This document shows positions 52,195-57,376 of a stretch of DNA of 64,000 bases, in pieces (the stretch's first letter is position 1; the number at the start of each line of letters is the position of its first letter). The position numbers and the translations under genes are program-made. Under the pieces are notes generated by a model. It was given only the letters and a program-made list of their open reading frames with translations. It ran no database searches and was not told where the DNA came from. This stretch comes from Sphingobacteriaceae bacterium (GTDB lineage: Bacteria > Bacteroidota > Bacteroidia > Sphingobacteriales > Sphingobacteriaceae): the NCBI GenBank assembly GCA_947463785.1, contig CANHRG010000002.1, positions 62,001 through 126,000 of the forward strand, in the 5' to 3' direction.

Positions 52195-52752
52195 ATGAAA
52201 AAAATGAGTTTATACCTAACACTGATCATGCTGTTGGGTGCTTTTTCCTTTTGCAACAGACAGCAAAAAGATAGTGTAGACCTTGCTAAAGAGAGCAATG
52301 ATCGAAAAGAAGTACTCAACGAAGATCAGTCAGATTTTGTGGTACAGGCAGCCAGTGCCGGTTTACTCGAAGTAGAGCTGGGTAAACTAGGGCAACAAAT
52401 GGCACAACACAACCGATTAAAGAAATTTGCCAAAATGATGGTCGATGACCATGCAAAGATGAGCGAAGAACTGAAAGAATTGGCCACAAAAAAACAACTT
52501 ACCCTACCGGGAAGTTTGGGCGAAGAGCAGCAACGTAAACTAAACGATCTACGTGAACAAAACCGTCAAAAGTTTGATAGGCGTTACCTAGAAGTGATGG
52601 AAGAAGAACACGAAAACGACATTAAGAAATTTGAAGAGGCCTCAGAAAACCATAAAGATGCCGACATTCAAACCTTTGCAGCAAAACACTTGCCCTTATT
52701 ACGGGCTCACCTCGATTCCGTTAAACTAATTCGGGCAGCATTGAAAAAATAA
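52195..52752 (+). CDS. DUF4142 lipoprotein
   Basis: 185 aa with a lipoprotein-type signal ending AFSFC (Cys20). The rest is a helical DUF4142 ferritin-like domain: DFVVQAASAGLLEVELGKLGQQMAQHNRLKKFAKMMVDDHAKMSEEL and a C-terminal AAKHLPLLRAHLDSVKLI. The family is widespread in Bacteroidota and Proteobacteria and is stress-associated, but its function is not established. A terminator follows directly. Confidence 0.88.
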   Translation: MKKMSLYLTLIMLLGAFSFCNRQQKDSVDLAKESNDRKEVLNEDQSDFVVQAASAGLLEVELGKLGQQMAQHNRLKKFAKMMVDDHAKMSEELKELATKKQLTLPGSLGEEQQRKLNDLREQNRQKFDRRYLEVMEEEHENDIKKFEEASENHKDADIQTFAAKHLPLLRAHLDSVKLIRAALKK

Positions 52753-52773
52753 CTTAGCTTACTTTTATGATCG

Positions 52774-52803
52774 AAGCGAGTCGGAATTCCGGCTTGCTTT
52801 TTT
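52774..52803 (+). terminator. Terminator after the DUF4142 gene
   Basis: An 11-bp stem with two G-T pairs (AAGCGAGTCGG with CCGGCTTGCTT) around AATT, followed by T residues. Confidence 0.8.
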
Positions 52804-52964
52804 GTTTAGAATAACTAGCTTTCCAATACTTCGTTCAGTTTGTCCCGCAAATCGTAAAAAACCTAAATTTTTCTGTATTCACCTTAATTGCTAGATTTCA
52901 GTTAATTAGTAAATCCATAATATGTGATAATAAGTGAAATTCTGCTTTTTCACGCGAATTGTCA

Positions 52965-52994
52965 TTGAAATATCATAGAAAACAGCTATTTTCG
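52965..52994 (+). promoter_or_regulatory. Promoter of the polysaccharide locus
   Basis: TTG at 52965-52967, a 19-base spacer and TATTTTCG at 52987-52994 (one mismatch to TAnnTTTG). The implied leader to the UpxY gene is about 210 bases. It lies in the 462-base gene-free stretch 52753-53214, whose contents are the DUF4142 terminator, this promoter and the structured leader. Confidence 0.7.
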
Positions 52995-53030
52995 AACAAT
53001 TAAATTTAGTTAAACCAAACAGGCCCCATG

Positions 53031-53101
53031 GTATCTAATTAAAACGTTCATTAGATACACTATTAAGGTCCTGGATCGCATTTTACCGGTTTGTAAAATG
53101 C
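53031..53101 (+). promoter_or_regulatory. Structured leader of the polysaccharide operon (two perfect hairpins)
   Basis: Hairpin A pairs GTATCTAAT (53031-53039) with ATTAGATAC (53050-53058). Hairpin B pairs GCATTTTAC (53078-53086) with GTAAAATGC (53093-53101). Both are perfect 9-bp stems, 19 bases apart. Neither is followed by a T run, so they are not ordinary terminators. A smaller TGGC-GAA-GCCA hairpin and a GGCGGCTT stretch (53181-53198 region, faintly like the ops core GGCGGTAG) lie further down. Confidence 0.6.
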
Positions 53102-53214
53102 AACTCAATCCATGTGTAGTAGCTGCACTGTGACTGAGAGTGGCGAAGCCATGTACCAAAATTTGTTAACACACGCATTTGGCGGCTTATTAGTATATTG
53201 CAAGACTAAGCAAA

Positions 53215-53718
53215 TTGAAACCTGACTTGAACCTTTCCTGGTACGCTGTGTACACTCGCCCACGTTGGGAGAAGAAGGTGGCTGCCTTATTGGCTAAAAA
53301 ACGGATAGAACAGTATTGCCCGCTCAACAAAGTTATGAAGCAGTGGAGCGACCGTAAAAAACTAGTTGAAGAGCCCTTGTTTAGCGGTTATGTCTTTGTA
53401 AGAACCGCTGAAGCCGATAAATGGCGAATCAAAGAAATCGAAGGTATTTTGAATTATGTGTACTGGTTAGGAAAACCTGCAGTCATCTCAGATTTGGAAA
53501 TCGACACCATCAAACGATTTTTGAATGAGCACGATTCGGTAGAGGTAAAGCCACTCAGCTTGAAGACAAACGATCAAGTCCGAATTCTTTCTGGCCCCTT
53601 TATGAATCAGCAGGCAACCGTACAAACGGTAAAAGGCAAATACGTTGAAATAGAACTACCTTCCCTGCACATCGCCCTAAGAGCAACGGTGCGATTGGCA
53701 GATGTAGAATTGGCATAA
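53215..53718 (+). CDS. UpxY-type transcription antiterminator (NusG paralogue)
   Basis: 167 aa. The N-terminal NGN domain has WYAVYTRPRWEKKVAALLAKKRIEQYCPL and EEPLFSGYVFVR, and the C-terminal part is a KOW-like domain (NDQVRILSGPFMNQQATVQTVKGKYVEIEL). In Bacteroides such proteins heading capsule loci prevent premature termination of their own operon. Start TTG 53215; no ATG is available. It is the first gene of the polysaccharide locus and follows a structured leader, its probable site of action. Confidence 0.92.
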   Translation: MKPDLNLSWYAVYTRPRWEKKVAALLAKKRIEQYCPLNKVMKQWSDRKKLVEEPLFSGYVFVRTAEADKWRIKEIEGILNYVYWLGKPAVISDLEIDTIKRFLNEHDSVEVKPLSLKTNDQVRILSGPFMNQQATVQTVKGKYVEIELPSLHIALRATVRLADVELA

Positions 53719-53747
53719 ATTAAAACCCGAAATTGAAAACAGAACAT

Positions 53748-56279
53748 ATGAAATCAAAACAAGGCTTTTATACCCTCATGCTTGCCGCTTTGTTGCTACT
53801 CCTCGGCGTAGAACTGAAAGCACAAACGCCCAATCCACAGAACTTGAGTAATGTGCGGGTAAGCGAATTAAGCGATGCCCAGATCAGGGCCTTTATCCGT
53901 CAGGTAGAGTCAACCGGATTAACCGATGCTCAATTGGAGCAAGTGGCCATTGCTCGGGGTATGTCACCCGATGAAGTGCAAAAATTGAGAATACGGGTTG
54001 AGCAACTCAAAAAAACAGAAGCGCTCAAAGCCAATTCGACTAAAAAAGCAGCCTTACCCGATGCACCTAAACTCAATACCGTTCGCAAAGCCCCGCTAGA
54101 CCCTAAACAAGATAGTTTAGAAAGAAAAGATCCCGAAACCGAAGCAGAAAAGGCACTAGTAGAATTGAAAGCCAAAATTTTCGGTGCCTCACTATTTACC
54201 AATGCAAACATCACGTTCGAGCCCAACTTGCGTTTGGCCACACCAGCCAATTACATCTTAGGTCCCGATGATGAATTGAACATTGAAATAACCGGCTACA
54301 ACGAAGCCAGCTATTCCTTACCCGTATCACCCGAAGGAAGAATAAAAGTAGAGTATGTTGGTCTTATTCCGGTAGCAGGCCTAACAGTAGAAACCGCAAC
54401 AGCCAGAATTAAATCGCGTTTAGCTCAAATTTACCCGGCACTTGCATCGGGTAAAACCCAGGTAAGCGTTGCCATCGGTAACATCCGTAGCATTAAAGTA
54501 ACCGTATTGGGCGAAGCCACCAAACCCGGTTCATTCACATTACCTTCCTTGGCAACCGCGTTCAATGCCTTGTACGCAGCTGGCGGACCCACAGAAAACG
54601 GCTCCCTGCGTCAAATTGAAATTATCCGCAACAATAAAATCATTCGTACACTCGATGTCTACGATTTCCTGATGCGTGGCGACCAAAAAAACAATGTACG
54701 TCTGCAAGACCAAGACATCATCCGCATTCCGCCTTACAAAGGACGCGTTGAGTTGGCAGGTGAAGTAAAACGCCCGGCTATTTTTGAAGTTGTACCTGGA
54801 GAAAACCTGGCTCAAGTTCTCGATTTTGCCGGCGGATTTACCGAAAATGCCTATACTGCCCGCATCAAAGTATTGCAGAATACAAGCAAAGAACGCCGTA
54901 TAGCCGATGTTTTTTCGCCCGATTTTAAAAATTACCAACCCAAACTGGGCGATAAATTTTACGTAGAACCTATACTCGAGCGTTTTGAGAACCGGGTGTT
55001 CATCGAAGGCGCAGTATTCCGTCCTGGCGACTATGCCCTAAGTCCGGGTTTAACACTCAAAGCCTTAATCCAACAAGCCGATGGTCCGCAAGAAGATGCA
55101 TTCCTCAGCCGCGGATACATCACTCGGGTTAAAGCCGATAACACCACCGAAGTACAAGCCTTCGACCTTGCGGCAATCCTCAACGGTACCGCAGCAGACA
55201 TTACCCTCAAACGCGAAGATAAAGTACGTATCCCGTCTATTTTCGATCTACGCGACGAATACAAAGTGCAAATTGATGGCGCCGTACGTCAGCCTGGCGA
55301 ATTTAGCTATGCAGACAACATGGCTTTGGAAGATGTAATCATCAAAGCCGGTGGATTTAGTGAATCGGGTAGTCCGAAACGCATCGAAGTAGCCCGCCGT
55401 GTAAAAAATACCGATACCAATCAATCGGCTACACAAACAGCAGAAGTATTTCAAATTGATGTTGATCCACAGCTTCGCTTCAGCAAAACCCAATTTACCC
55501 TAAAACCATTTGACATCATTTCAGTTCGTAACGCACCCGGTTTCGAAGAACAACGTCGGGTGTACCTCAAAGGAGAAGTGACCTATCCGGGAACCTACGT
55601 ACTTACCCGTAAAGACGAACGCATTTCAGAACTCATCACCCGTGCAGGCGGACTCACACCCGAAGCTTTCGTAGCCGGTGCTTCGCTCAAGCGCCCGGGT
55701 GCCAGCTCAAAATTGAAAAAAGGTACCAAAAACGCCGAAATTGAAGCCCTGGCCGAGCAAGATAAGTCTAATCAATTGAAGCGTTTACAAGGCAGTATAA
55801 ACGATACTACCCAAACGGCAAACACCATAGTTAGTCCTGCAAGTTTGGCCGTAGGTATCCGCTTAGATAAAATCTTAAACCGTCCAGGCTCAGCCATCGA
55901 TTTATTGCTCGAAGAAGGAGATACCCTCACTGTGCCCCGCAAGCTGCAAACCGTTAAAGTAGCTGGTGAGGTTTTATCGCCCATCAGCATCGTTTACCGT
56001 TCGGGTAAAGGTCTGGGGCAATACCTTACAGAGGCAGGAGGCTTAACCGAGAAAGCCTTAGCAAAACGAACTTACGTGGTATATGCCAACGGTTCGGTAA
56101 AAGGTACCCGTTCGGCTTTCGGATTCAAATTTTATCCAGGTATCAAACCCGGTGCAGAAATTTTTGTGCCGCAGCGGCCCGATAAGAAAAAGCTTTCTGC
56201 ACAAGAGCTGCTCGGTATAACTTCCGGCATTGCCTCTTTGGGTGCCGTTATACTGGGTATCATCAATTTAACCAATTAA
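53748..56279 (+). CDS. Wza-like polysaccharide export protein with multiple SLBB domains
   Basis: 843 aa from ATG 53748 (an upstream in-frame TTG adds five unlikely residues). The signal peptide ends near LKAQ (residue 26). A helical, Lys/Asp-rich region follows, then the polysaccharide-export domain (YILGPDDELNIEITGYNEASYSLPVSPEGRI). At least five SLBB-type repeats follow, each with a GxxxxPGxF/Y and AGG pattern (KVTVLGEATKPGSFTL, RVELAGEVKRPAIFEV, RVFIEGAVFRPGDYAL and others). A C-terminal membrane helix ends the protein. It forms the export channel for the locus's polysaccharide. Confidence 0.92.
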   Translation: MKSKQGFYTLMLAALLLLLGVELKAQTPNPQNLSNVRVSELSDAQIRAFIRQVESTGLTDAQLEQVAIARGMSPDEVQKLRIRVEQLKKTEALKANSTKKAALPDAPKLNTVRKAPLDPKQDSLERKDPETEAEKALVELKAKIFGASLFTNANITFEPNLRLATPANYILGPDDELNIEITGYNEASYSLPVSPEGRIKVEYVGLIPVAGLTVETATARIKSRLAQIYPALASGKTQVSVAIGNIRSIKVTVLGEATKPGSFTLPSLATAFNALYAAGGPTENGSLRQIEIIRNNKIIRTLDVYDFLMRGDQKNNVRLQDQDIIRIPPYKGRVELAGEVKRPAIFEVVPGENLAQVLDFAGGFTENAYTARIKVLQNTSKERRIADVFSPDFKNYQPKLGDKFYVEPILERFENRVFIEGAVFRPGDYALSPGLTLKALIQQADGPQEDAFLSRGYITRVKADNTTEVQAFDLAAILNGTAADITLKREDKVRIPSIFDLRDEYKVQIDGAVRQPGEFSYADNMALEDVIIKAGGFSESGSPKRIEVARRVKNTDTNQSATQTAEVFQIDVDPQLRFSKTQFTLKPFDIISVRNAPGFEEQRRVYLKGEVTYPGTYVLTRKDERISELITRAGGLTPEAFVAGASLKRPGASSKLKKGTKNAEIEALAEQDKSNQLKRLQGSINDTTQTANTIVSPASLAVGIRLDKILNRPGSAIDLLLEEGDTLTVPRKLQTVKVAGEVLSPISIVYRSGKGLGQYLTEAGGLTEKALAKRTYVVYANGSVKGTRSAFGFKFYPGIKPGAEIFVPQRPDKKKLSAQELLGITSGIASLGAVILGIINLTN

Positions 56280-56290
56280 GTACCTACAGC

Positions 56291-57376
56291 ATGACCGATT
56301 TAAGTAAACCTACACCAAATACCGACGACGAAATCTCTTTAAAAGAACTTTTGCAGAAAGCGAAAGAAGTATACCAATTCCTGCTCAGTAAATGGAAAAC
56401 CATCCTGTATGCGGGCTGTATGGGGGCACTCTTGGGTTTAGGCTACAGTTTTATTAAAAAACCCGTCTATACAGCTACCTACAGTTTTGTATTAGAAGAT
56501 GAAAAATCGGGTGGATTAAGTGGCGCCTTGAGTCTGGCCTCTCAATTTGGACTGGATATTGGTGGAGCAGGAGGGGGTGGAGCCTTCGCCGGCGATAATT
56601 TGTTAGAATTGATGAAATCTCGCACCATGGTGCAGCAAGCATTACTAAGTCCAATCGCTTTAAATGGTAAGAAAGAATCACTCCTCAATTATTACATAGC
56701 TTACAATAACTTGCGTGAGGCTTGGTCAGATAAGCCCGAATTGGCCAAACTGAATTTTCCCATAAATGCAGATCCCGCTACCTTCAGCAGGGCTCAGGAC
56801 AGTGTCTTGATGAAAATTCACGAAAACCTCACTAAAAATTTCTTGTCGGTGGCTAAAATCGATAAGAAACTCAGCATCATCAAGGTAGAGGTGAAATCAA
56901 AAAACGAAGTCTTTGCCAAAGCCTTTGCCGAAGCATTGGTGGCCCAGGTATCCCGTTTTTATGTAGAAACCAAAACCCAAAAATCAGCTAAAAACGTGGC
57001 CATCTTGCAACACCAGGCCGATTCGGTACGCCAACGCTTAAACATGGCCATCAGTGGTGTGGCCATGGCCAACGATGCCAACCCCAATTTAAATGCGGCT
57101 ATGCAGGTCTTACGAGCACCTTCTCAACAACGTCAAGTAGATGTCCAAGCCAATACAGCTATTTTGACCGAATTGGTGAAGAATTTGGAACTGGCCAAAC
57201 TGGCCTTAAGAAGAGAAACGCCATTAATTCAAGTGATTGACAAACCGTTATTACCCTTGAAGGTGGATAAATTAGGGAAATTGAAGGCTTTGGTTTTTGG
57301 GGGATTTTTAGCTGGTTTTTTCACATGCTTGTACTTAGTCTTAAGCATGATTTTCAAAAACATTACGATTAAATAG
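56291..57376 (+). CDS. Wzz-family polysaccharide chain-length determinant
   Basis: 361 aa. Two membrane segments (about 38-56 and 332-353) bracket a periplasmic helical domain with a coiled coil. A glycine-rich stretch near residue 95 lies within [19 protein letters not shown]. The opening [31 protein letters not shown] is the Wzz N-terminal domain. No tyrosine-kinase domain is attached, unlike Wzc. It sets chain length of the exported glycan and sits 11 bases after the export gene. Confidence 0.9.

Follow-up and report, generated by a model that had tools for sequence, protein, structure and literature searches.

Introduction

The systems closest to the locus described here are RfaH with its ops element in E. 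coli, UpxY in Bacteroides and LoaP with dfn in Bacillus velezensis. For ops12 (GGCGGTAGCGTG), the E. coli study describes a loop from G4 to A7 closed by C3:G8, a hairpin required for the recruitment of RfaH, and a TG at positions 11–12 with the pause at U11 (PMC5995543). In the same description, RNA polymerase in the ops complex protects 14–15 bp upstream, to which RfaH adds 6–7 bp, and ops is read by helices 1 and 2 of RfaH while the β3–β4 hairpin may touch upstream DNA (PMC5995543). LoaP is described as acting through an UNCG-type RNA hairpin, with no discernible pause in the account given by PMC12691694, a source that also cites a reported contact of UpxY with the upstream DNA duplex (Saba, 2024). 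UpxY keeps transcription from terminating early within the 5′ leader (Chatzidaki-Livanis, 2009, as related in PMC7819879). GNA and GNNA loops on two G–C pairs are described as giving DNA mini-hairpins of unusual stability, with a melting temperature of 78 °C for GCGAAGC (PMC4686876).

Results

The upxY leader and its 9-bp hairpins

Our analysis covered the 250 nt preceding a upxY gene in a 64,000-nt stretch of Sphingobacteriaceae DNA, the whole of which we call the window. The genes of the locus and the parts of the leader discussed first are:

52960–52994, + strand: presumed promoter block, TGTCAT (52960–52965) ... TTG-N19-TATTTTCG (TATTTTCG at 52987–52994); partly invariant in two same-genus leaders
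53031–53058, + strand: perfect 9-bp hairpin GTATCTAAT/ATTAGATAC; real, not conserved, no counterpart in leaders L035 and L036
53078–53101, + strand: perfect 9-bp hairpin GCATTTTAC/GTAAAATGC; real, not conserved, no counterpart in L035 and L036
53181–53188, + strand: GGCGGCTT, ops-like stretch; rejected, not conserved in L035 or L036
53215–53718, + strand: upxY, NusG-family antiterminator (NF033644, NusG); TTG start as in the list of open reading frames, true start uncertain
53733–56279, + strand: polysaccharide export protein (Poly_export, SLBB); the structural genes of the presumed target operon begin here
56291–57376, + strand: Wzz-type chain length protein (domain match)

Beyond the Wzz-type gene, further open reading frames on the same strand continue to 63567 and read by eye as polysaccharide genes. 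Directly after the DUF4142 gene upstream of the leader, a terminator-like hairpin with a T-rich tail lies at 52773–52800 and may insulate the leader against upstream transcription; the scan gave two terminator-like matches where 2.3 were expected, i.e. the frequency of chance.

The earlier note had placed a consensus-like promoter ahead of upxY, and this stands in part. The block at 52960–52994 resembles the TTG/TAnnTTTG pattern, which we take to be that of Bacteroidota promoters, and a promoter between TGTCAT and TATTTTCG is plausible because two same-genus leaders share part of the block; the transcript would then start at about 53000. On the other hand, sigma-70-type matches between 52000 and 54500 stay at the level of shuffled sequence (6 against 5.1 ± 2.4 expected). 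Among 67 non-redundant loci, TAnnTTTG occurs in nine (7.8 in shuffles) and TTG-N17–22-TAnnTTYG in three, the window among them (0.7 in shuffles), and no promoter position is common to the loci.

Searches with the leader as a whole were negative. Its folding energy is close to that of shuffles (z −0.89; 39 of 200 shuffles fold equally well), a covariance search of 52700–53800 against Rfam returned three matches, all far under the gathering scores and with no leader family of the JUMPstart/EAR type, and a DNA homology search of 60 relatives gave one weak match of 34 nt apart from the window itself.

Two perfect 9-bp hairpins, neither followed by a T run, are indeed present, and the earlier note had proposed them as pause or recognition structures and GGCGGCTT as an ops-like element. 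We rejected both as the target of UpxY: they fall in diverged sequence of the same-genus alignment, where the hairpins have no counterpart in either of two leaders and GGCGGCTT stands opposite unrelated sequence. It could still be argued that the hairpins serve as pause or recognition structures in this single lineage, the conserved motif described below having some other role, and in dinucleotide shuffles of the leader at least two perfect hairpins of at least 9 bp (loop 3–15) do arise seldom (2 of 1000, against 13 of 1000 with at least one). Set against this are the two same-genus leaders, in which nothing matches, and the 62 perfect hairpins of at least 9 bp in the 64-kb window, about 0.24 per 250 nt when overlapping alternatives are counted separately, and we regard the idea as very improbable. 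Perfect 9-bp hairpins occur at scattered positions in 16 of the 80 other leaders, and in four of these (L037, L039, L044, L052) the hairpin is the arm of the conserved element.

A conserved bipartite element

The smaller TGGC/GCCA hairpin, also named by the earlier note, belongs to the conserved core of the leader, together with the TGTGACTGAG that precedes it and the TG that follows. The parts of this element are:

53128–53153, + strand: bipartite element, composed of CTGTGACTGAG, 2 nt, TGGC-GAA-GCCA and TG
53128–53138, + strand: upstream half CTGTGACTGAG, consensus nTGTRASTGAG (alignments A1 and A2), positions −25 to −15 relative to the predicted pause
53141–53151, + strand: small hairpin TGGC-GAA-GCCA (TGGCGAAGCCA), with GCGNAGC conservation, GNA triloop and third-pair covariation
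53152–53153, + strand: predicted pause TG, in which T would be the RNA 3′ end (−1) and G +1; place identical to that of the TG of ops
53104–53138, + strand: predicted RNA hairpin with the conserved TGTGACTGAG as its 3′ arm (fold and arm-pairing statistics)

We compared the leaders of 81 loci, namely the best 80 of 164 UpxY relatives from named genomes plus the window; these UpxY-related leaders come from related bacteria, so that the counts are not independent. Within 300 nt on the 5′ side of upxY, 78 of the 81 leaders contain GCGNAGC; control windows taken from these loci have it in 28 of 537 and 45 of 669 cases (5–7%), it is found on the antisense strand of one leader, and shuffles average 2.6 of 81. 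The full motif, which we defined as TG[TG]RA[CG]Y, 5–12 nt and GCGNAGC and searched in the same 300 nt, is found in 71 leaders, in one of the 537 control windows, in none of the 669 and in no shuffle. For TGTRASTGAG the corresponding figures are 51 of 81, 3 of 537 and 0 of 669. The consensus of 65 aligned sites reads nTGTRASTGAG, 2 to 4 nt, RGCGNAGCYNTG, and the longest runs invariant with the two same-genus leaders are ACTGTGACT and GCGAAGC. The 65 sites form alignments A1 and A2, from which near-identical sites, L043, chance GCGNAGC matches and some further relatives' sites were excluded.

Three leaders are without GCGNAGC. L057 has GCAGAGC in its stead, and in L065 and L074 there is no leader, since upxY begins a few nt past the stop of a Gly/Tyr-rich coding stretch and almost abuts it. 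No other words conserved between the element and upxY clearly exceeded shuffles among the 67 non-redundant loci, and on the 5′ side the conserved words belong to repeats coding for Gly and Tyr, present in roughly half of these loci. We take this repeat for the end of a tyrosine kinase gene, in which case upxY and the element may in many genomes sit within, and not at the start of, a longer polysaccharide locus. L011, L016 and L032 carry two copies of the element, about 50–110 nt apart, upstream of a single upxY.

Occurrence of the element with UpxY

A covariance model of the element (R1) was run within Bacteroidia. In the window's genome it finds one strong site at 33.8 bits, the next scoring 13.7 bits (150 of 405 first-look candidates scored). 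Across 247 genomes of the class the element occurs with the NusG paralog UpxY: with thresholds of E <= 0.01 for a site and E <= 1e-24 for the protein, UpxY is present in 53 of 57 motif-bearing genomes and in 38 of the 190 others (Fisher 2.7e-24, tree ignored). One of the four motif-bearing genomes without UpxY at that threshold, G379, has a good site (1.8e-4). Among 60 relatives, 26 have both motif and UpxY, two the motif only, two UpxY only and 30 neither, and the two motif-only relatives have weak sites (E 0.019 and 0.042). The same four classes number 23, 1, 2 and 11 in the window's own family (p 1e-6, tree ignored), and in its own genus four genomes have both and two have neither, one of the latter being 87% complete. 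The earlier note had taken the leader as the likely target of UpxY; this claim gains from an element that tracks UpxY across the class, whereas the 9-bp hairpins and GGCGGCTT lend it nothing.

We located 72 sites relative to upxY. Within 3 kb and on the same strand, 19 lie upstream and 13 downstream of the gene, and a single site lies on the opposite strand; seven are far off on the same contig and 32 are on contigs without a listed UpxY. The sites near UpxY are thus biased to the coding strand by 32 to 1, and we infer that the element lies in transcribed sequence ahead of its target. Given the 13 downstream sites, UpxY loci without an upstream element often have one just past upxY, before the next genes. 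We hand-picked 20 loci not immediately adjacent to a same-strand UpxY. In 13 of them a family scan identifies a downstream gene of the sugar-nucleotide, glycosyltransferase or export type; the other seven show no polysaccharide-type gene downstream or could not be judged. This set includes L194, with a same-strand UpxY 1.7 kb away, L166 and L183, with UpxY on the other strand, the weak matches L168 and L170, two loci that reach a contig end (L177, L192) and one, L193, whose second open reading frame was left unscanned.

A small protein of about 180 aa follows the element in L147, L159, L178, L191, L192 and L193, and in L174 it follows a galE-type gene. Most copies start with MLETLITSKTRIKLLLKFF or near it, and weak matches of winged-helix type (HTH_metalloreg, PaaX, Penicillinase_R) are all below cut-off. 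The protein is found in 10 of the 60 relatives; the window's genome gives no hit at E <= 1e-8. It is possibly a partner regulator.

The element is widespread in Bacteroidia and not universal. In 19 of 29 relative loci GCGNAGC is absent from the 450 nt before upxY, and in many relatives R1 locates the element downstream or elsewhere. The full motif is absent in 29 of 30 loci at phylum level, up to 700 nt upstream (less in four shorter loci), and 38 of the 91 UpxY genomes of the class sample have no site at E <= 0.01. Some sites are lost to the fast filters, as in G218, which has a motif-like site at L219; among 20 UpxY genes whose genomes lack an R1 site, three have leaders with a motif-like site by eye (L206, L209, L219). 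One UpxY-rich family, perhaps Bacteroidaceae, has UpxY in 49 of 61 genomes, in up to six copies, and something similar to the element in about 3–4 of 30 leaders; this is a weak test, with the gene start set at locus position 1500, wrongly so for L249. A search for the UpxZ of Bacteroides matched nothing in the 247 genomes, nor did any control match, so that this negative carries no weight.

Hairpin structure and pause register

The inner part of the small hairpin enters into the choice of sites: the 91 sites, and the 60 non-redundant ones among them, were chosen by the pattern GC(GNA or AGA)GC, so that the two inner pairs and the G at −10 are fixed by construction, and only the outer pair, the TG and a loop test anchored on the arm are independent of it. 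In that test we anchored on the upstream arm alone and accepted any 3-bp stem with a loop of 3–5 nt, with no GNA in the search. A GNA triloop on a 3-bp stem was found in 58 of 62 anchored matches (from 61 of the 81 leaders), against 2.3% in shuffles; the loops are GAA in 44, GGA in ten, GTA in three and GCA in one, and of the four other cases two have the loops AGA and TAT, one offers a 5-nt alternative and one shows no stem. Covariation is seen in the third stem pair. Across the 63 distinct rows of A2 this pair is GC in 34, AU in 22, GU in seven and never unpaired, L043 with its T–T pair and degenerate arm being omitted from this alignment, and over the 91 sites it is GC in 43, AT in 27, GT in 18 and AC, TA and TT in one each, which gives 71 Watson–Crick pairs where 43.7 would be expected without pairing. 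As G–T is tolerated and A–C is rare, these sequence data point to a hairpin of the coding strand, in DNA or RNA, and not of the template strand.

T stands at site position +10 in 51 of the 60 non-redundant sites (p 5e-22 against local composition) and G at +11 in 31 (p 1e-10). If this T is taken as −1, the first G of GCGNAGC falls at −10, the register of the consensus pause, whose G −10, Y −1 and G +1 are all matched in sequence, the G at −10 not being independent of site choice. The E. coli ops proper (GGCGGTAGCGTG with its GGTA loop and flipped T) was considered and rejected: the loop here is GNA, and ungapped identity with the window sequence amounts to 7 of 12.

We also considered that the motif might be a promoter of the sigma-54 type, or the site of a DNA-binding regulator, and not an elongation signal. 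Its bipartite shape would suit such a role, and a sigma-54-like G[TG]-N10-GC spacing occurs in 29 of the 87 sites (of 91) that have a recognisable arm and were tallied for spacing. That spacing, however, runs from 10 to 12 nt and is not fixed, the TTGC of the −12 box is missing, with a T before GC in 2 of 91 sites, and the hairpin covaries. Sigma-54 is moreover present in 57 of the 60 relatives, whereas of those relatives that carry the motif, 28 in all, 26 have UpxY. A sigma-54 promoter in the strict sense (TGGCAC-N5-TTGC with fixed spacing) was rejected, as a loose TGG..TTGC matches none of the 91 sites and the spacing varies by 2 nt. We give the promoter or operator reading hardly any credence.

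In many lineages an RNA hairpin is predicted to use the upstream half as its 3′ arm. In the window, 53104–53138 folds with −12.6 kcal/mol, a value matched by 7 of 200 shuffles. In 86 of the 91 sites the arm pairs better with its own 5′ partner (14.53) than with permuted ones (13.11, sd 0.22; 300 permutations). The score for 70 non-redundant sites is 14.42, and none of 1000 permutations exceeded 13.91. Per site the signal is modest: the own partner exceeds the mean of the others in 59 of 86 sites and 90% of the others in 30 of 86, and the mean folding z is −0.64.

This arm covariation, with several leaders making perfect hairpins that end in the motif, also fits an RNA element of the LoaP kind, in which UpxY or another factor would bind the nascent RNA at a TGTRACTGAG hairpin and the small GNA hairpin, and LoaP offers the precedent of action through an RNA hairpin with no discernible pause described (PMC12691694). 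Yet 58 of the 62 matches anchored on the arm have a 3-bp stem capped by a GNA triloop, a structure of the DNA mini-hairpin class, the TG is conserved in the register of a pause, and at many Chitinophaga sites the upstream hairpin has only 4 bp or is weak. We consider an RNA element unlikely, if clearly less so than a promoter or operator, and favor an ops-like site in the non-template DNA.

The UpxY protein

The gene at 53215 encodes a UpxY, as the earlier note had held: NF033644 matches with 142.9 bits (cut-off 100; 8.7e-42) and NusG with 1.5e-18. The predicted structure (pLDDT 89.7, pTM 0.71) comprises an NGN domain and, at the C terminus, a beta-rich domain, and it matches NusG and RfaH structures, its NGN domain overlaying RfaH of the ops complex (5ond) at 2.4 Å over 96 columns. 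Residues invariant in an alignment of 48 of the 81 proteins include T14, P16 and W18–A23 in the first helix and W44, D46, R47 and K49 in the β3–β4 turn. By analogy, these patches may act as the corresponding parts of RfaH do.

Discussion

We propose that the leader holds one ops-like loading site for UpxY at 53128–53153, where UpxY would join a paused complex and carry it through the operon, and we put the probability of this reading at roughly 80%. The bipartite element, its covariation, its pause register, its strand bias and its linkage to UpxY are what we observe. RNA polymerase transcribing the leader would pause with the RNA 3′ end at T53152 (G −10, T −1, G +1), and the exposed non-template strand of the paused complex, GGCGAAGCC, would fold into a DNA mini-hairpin with a GNA triloop that serves as the docking point for UpxY. 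UpxY would also read the preceding TGTGACTGAG, as upstream duplex DNA, as an RNA hairpin or as both; by analogy with ops, reading as duplex DNA is plausible since the upstream half, at −25 to −15, overlaps the footprint as extended by RfaH. UpxY would then remain on the polymerase and carry it through upxY itself and the long polysaccharide operon, and where a genome has unlinked copies of the element, one UpxY could act in trans, like RfaH, on further sugar-polymer operons. UpxY binding, pausing, DNA hairpin formation and antitermination are thus steps that we infer from sequence.

The class of mechanism is already known from RfaH with ops and from the reported contact of UpxY with upstream DNA. 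A literature search on titles and abstract openings found no description of such a UpxY element, and recognition of leaders by UpxY outside Bacteroides seems to be undescribed; as far as these titles and openings tell, the element, its GNA hairpin, the pause register and the distribution outside Bacteroides are new here. At 26 nt, and with a predicted pause, a hairpin and natural variants, the element makes leader recognition by UpxY directly testable, and it permits sequence-based prediction of UpxY regulons across Bacteroidia, including operons without a nearby UpxY gene. More tentatively, and at slightly short of even odds, we suggest that NusG paralogs share a code, a mini-hairpin of non-template DNA with a C:G closing pair and a loop that begins with G and ends with A, as GNNA in ops for RfaH and as GNA in many Bacteroidia for UpxY, that UpxY acts as a trans regulon factor for scattered polysaccharide operons in genomes with one or few copies, and that the capsule-rich relatives have diversified their leaders.

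The likeness to RfaH and ops of E. coli lies in a presumed target for a NusG paralog, a putative pause TG at equal distance, a predicted mini-hairpin with C:G closure and G and A at the loop ends, and polysaccharide-type operons with possible action in trans. Unlike ops, with its GGTA loop, the UpxY element has a GNA triloop, it lacks a conserved T for the pocket, where RfaH reads a flipped T, it carries the additional conserved TGTRASTGAG upstream, and it often adjoins the gene of its own factor. The factors differ as well, the KOW domain of UpxY being predicted as beta strands and that of free RfaH forming an alpha hairpin. With the UpxY leaders of Bacteroides the locus shares a factor of the UpxY family and, by prediction, action in a 5′ leader; in the one UpxY-rich family, by contrast, only about 3–4 of 30 leaders show something similar to the element. 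Both non-template DNA and nascent RNA hairpins are reportedly involved in UpxY action, in work by Saba from 2024 that is said to have appeared in Nat Commun 15:10862. As with LoaP and dfn of B. velezensis, a leader hairpin would recruit a NusG paralog to a long operon; unlike dfn, the loops of the upstream hairpins vary between leaders as judged by eye, with no conserved loop of UNCG type, and a pause-type TG is conserved. Finally, GCGNAGC belongs to the class of extraordinarily stable GNA/GNNA DNA mini-hairpins, which the source describes in oligonucleotides (PMC4686876) whereas here the sequence is a genomic signal, and the element would be a second signal of this class alongside ops.
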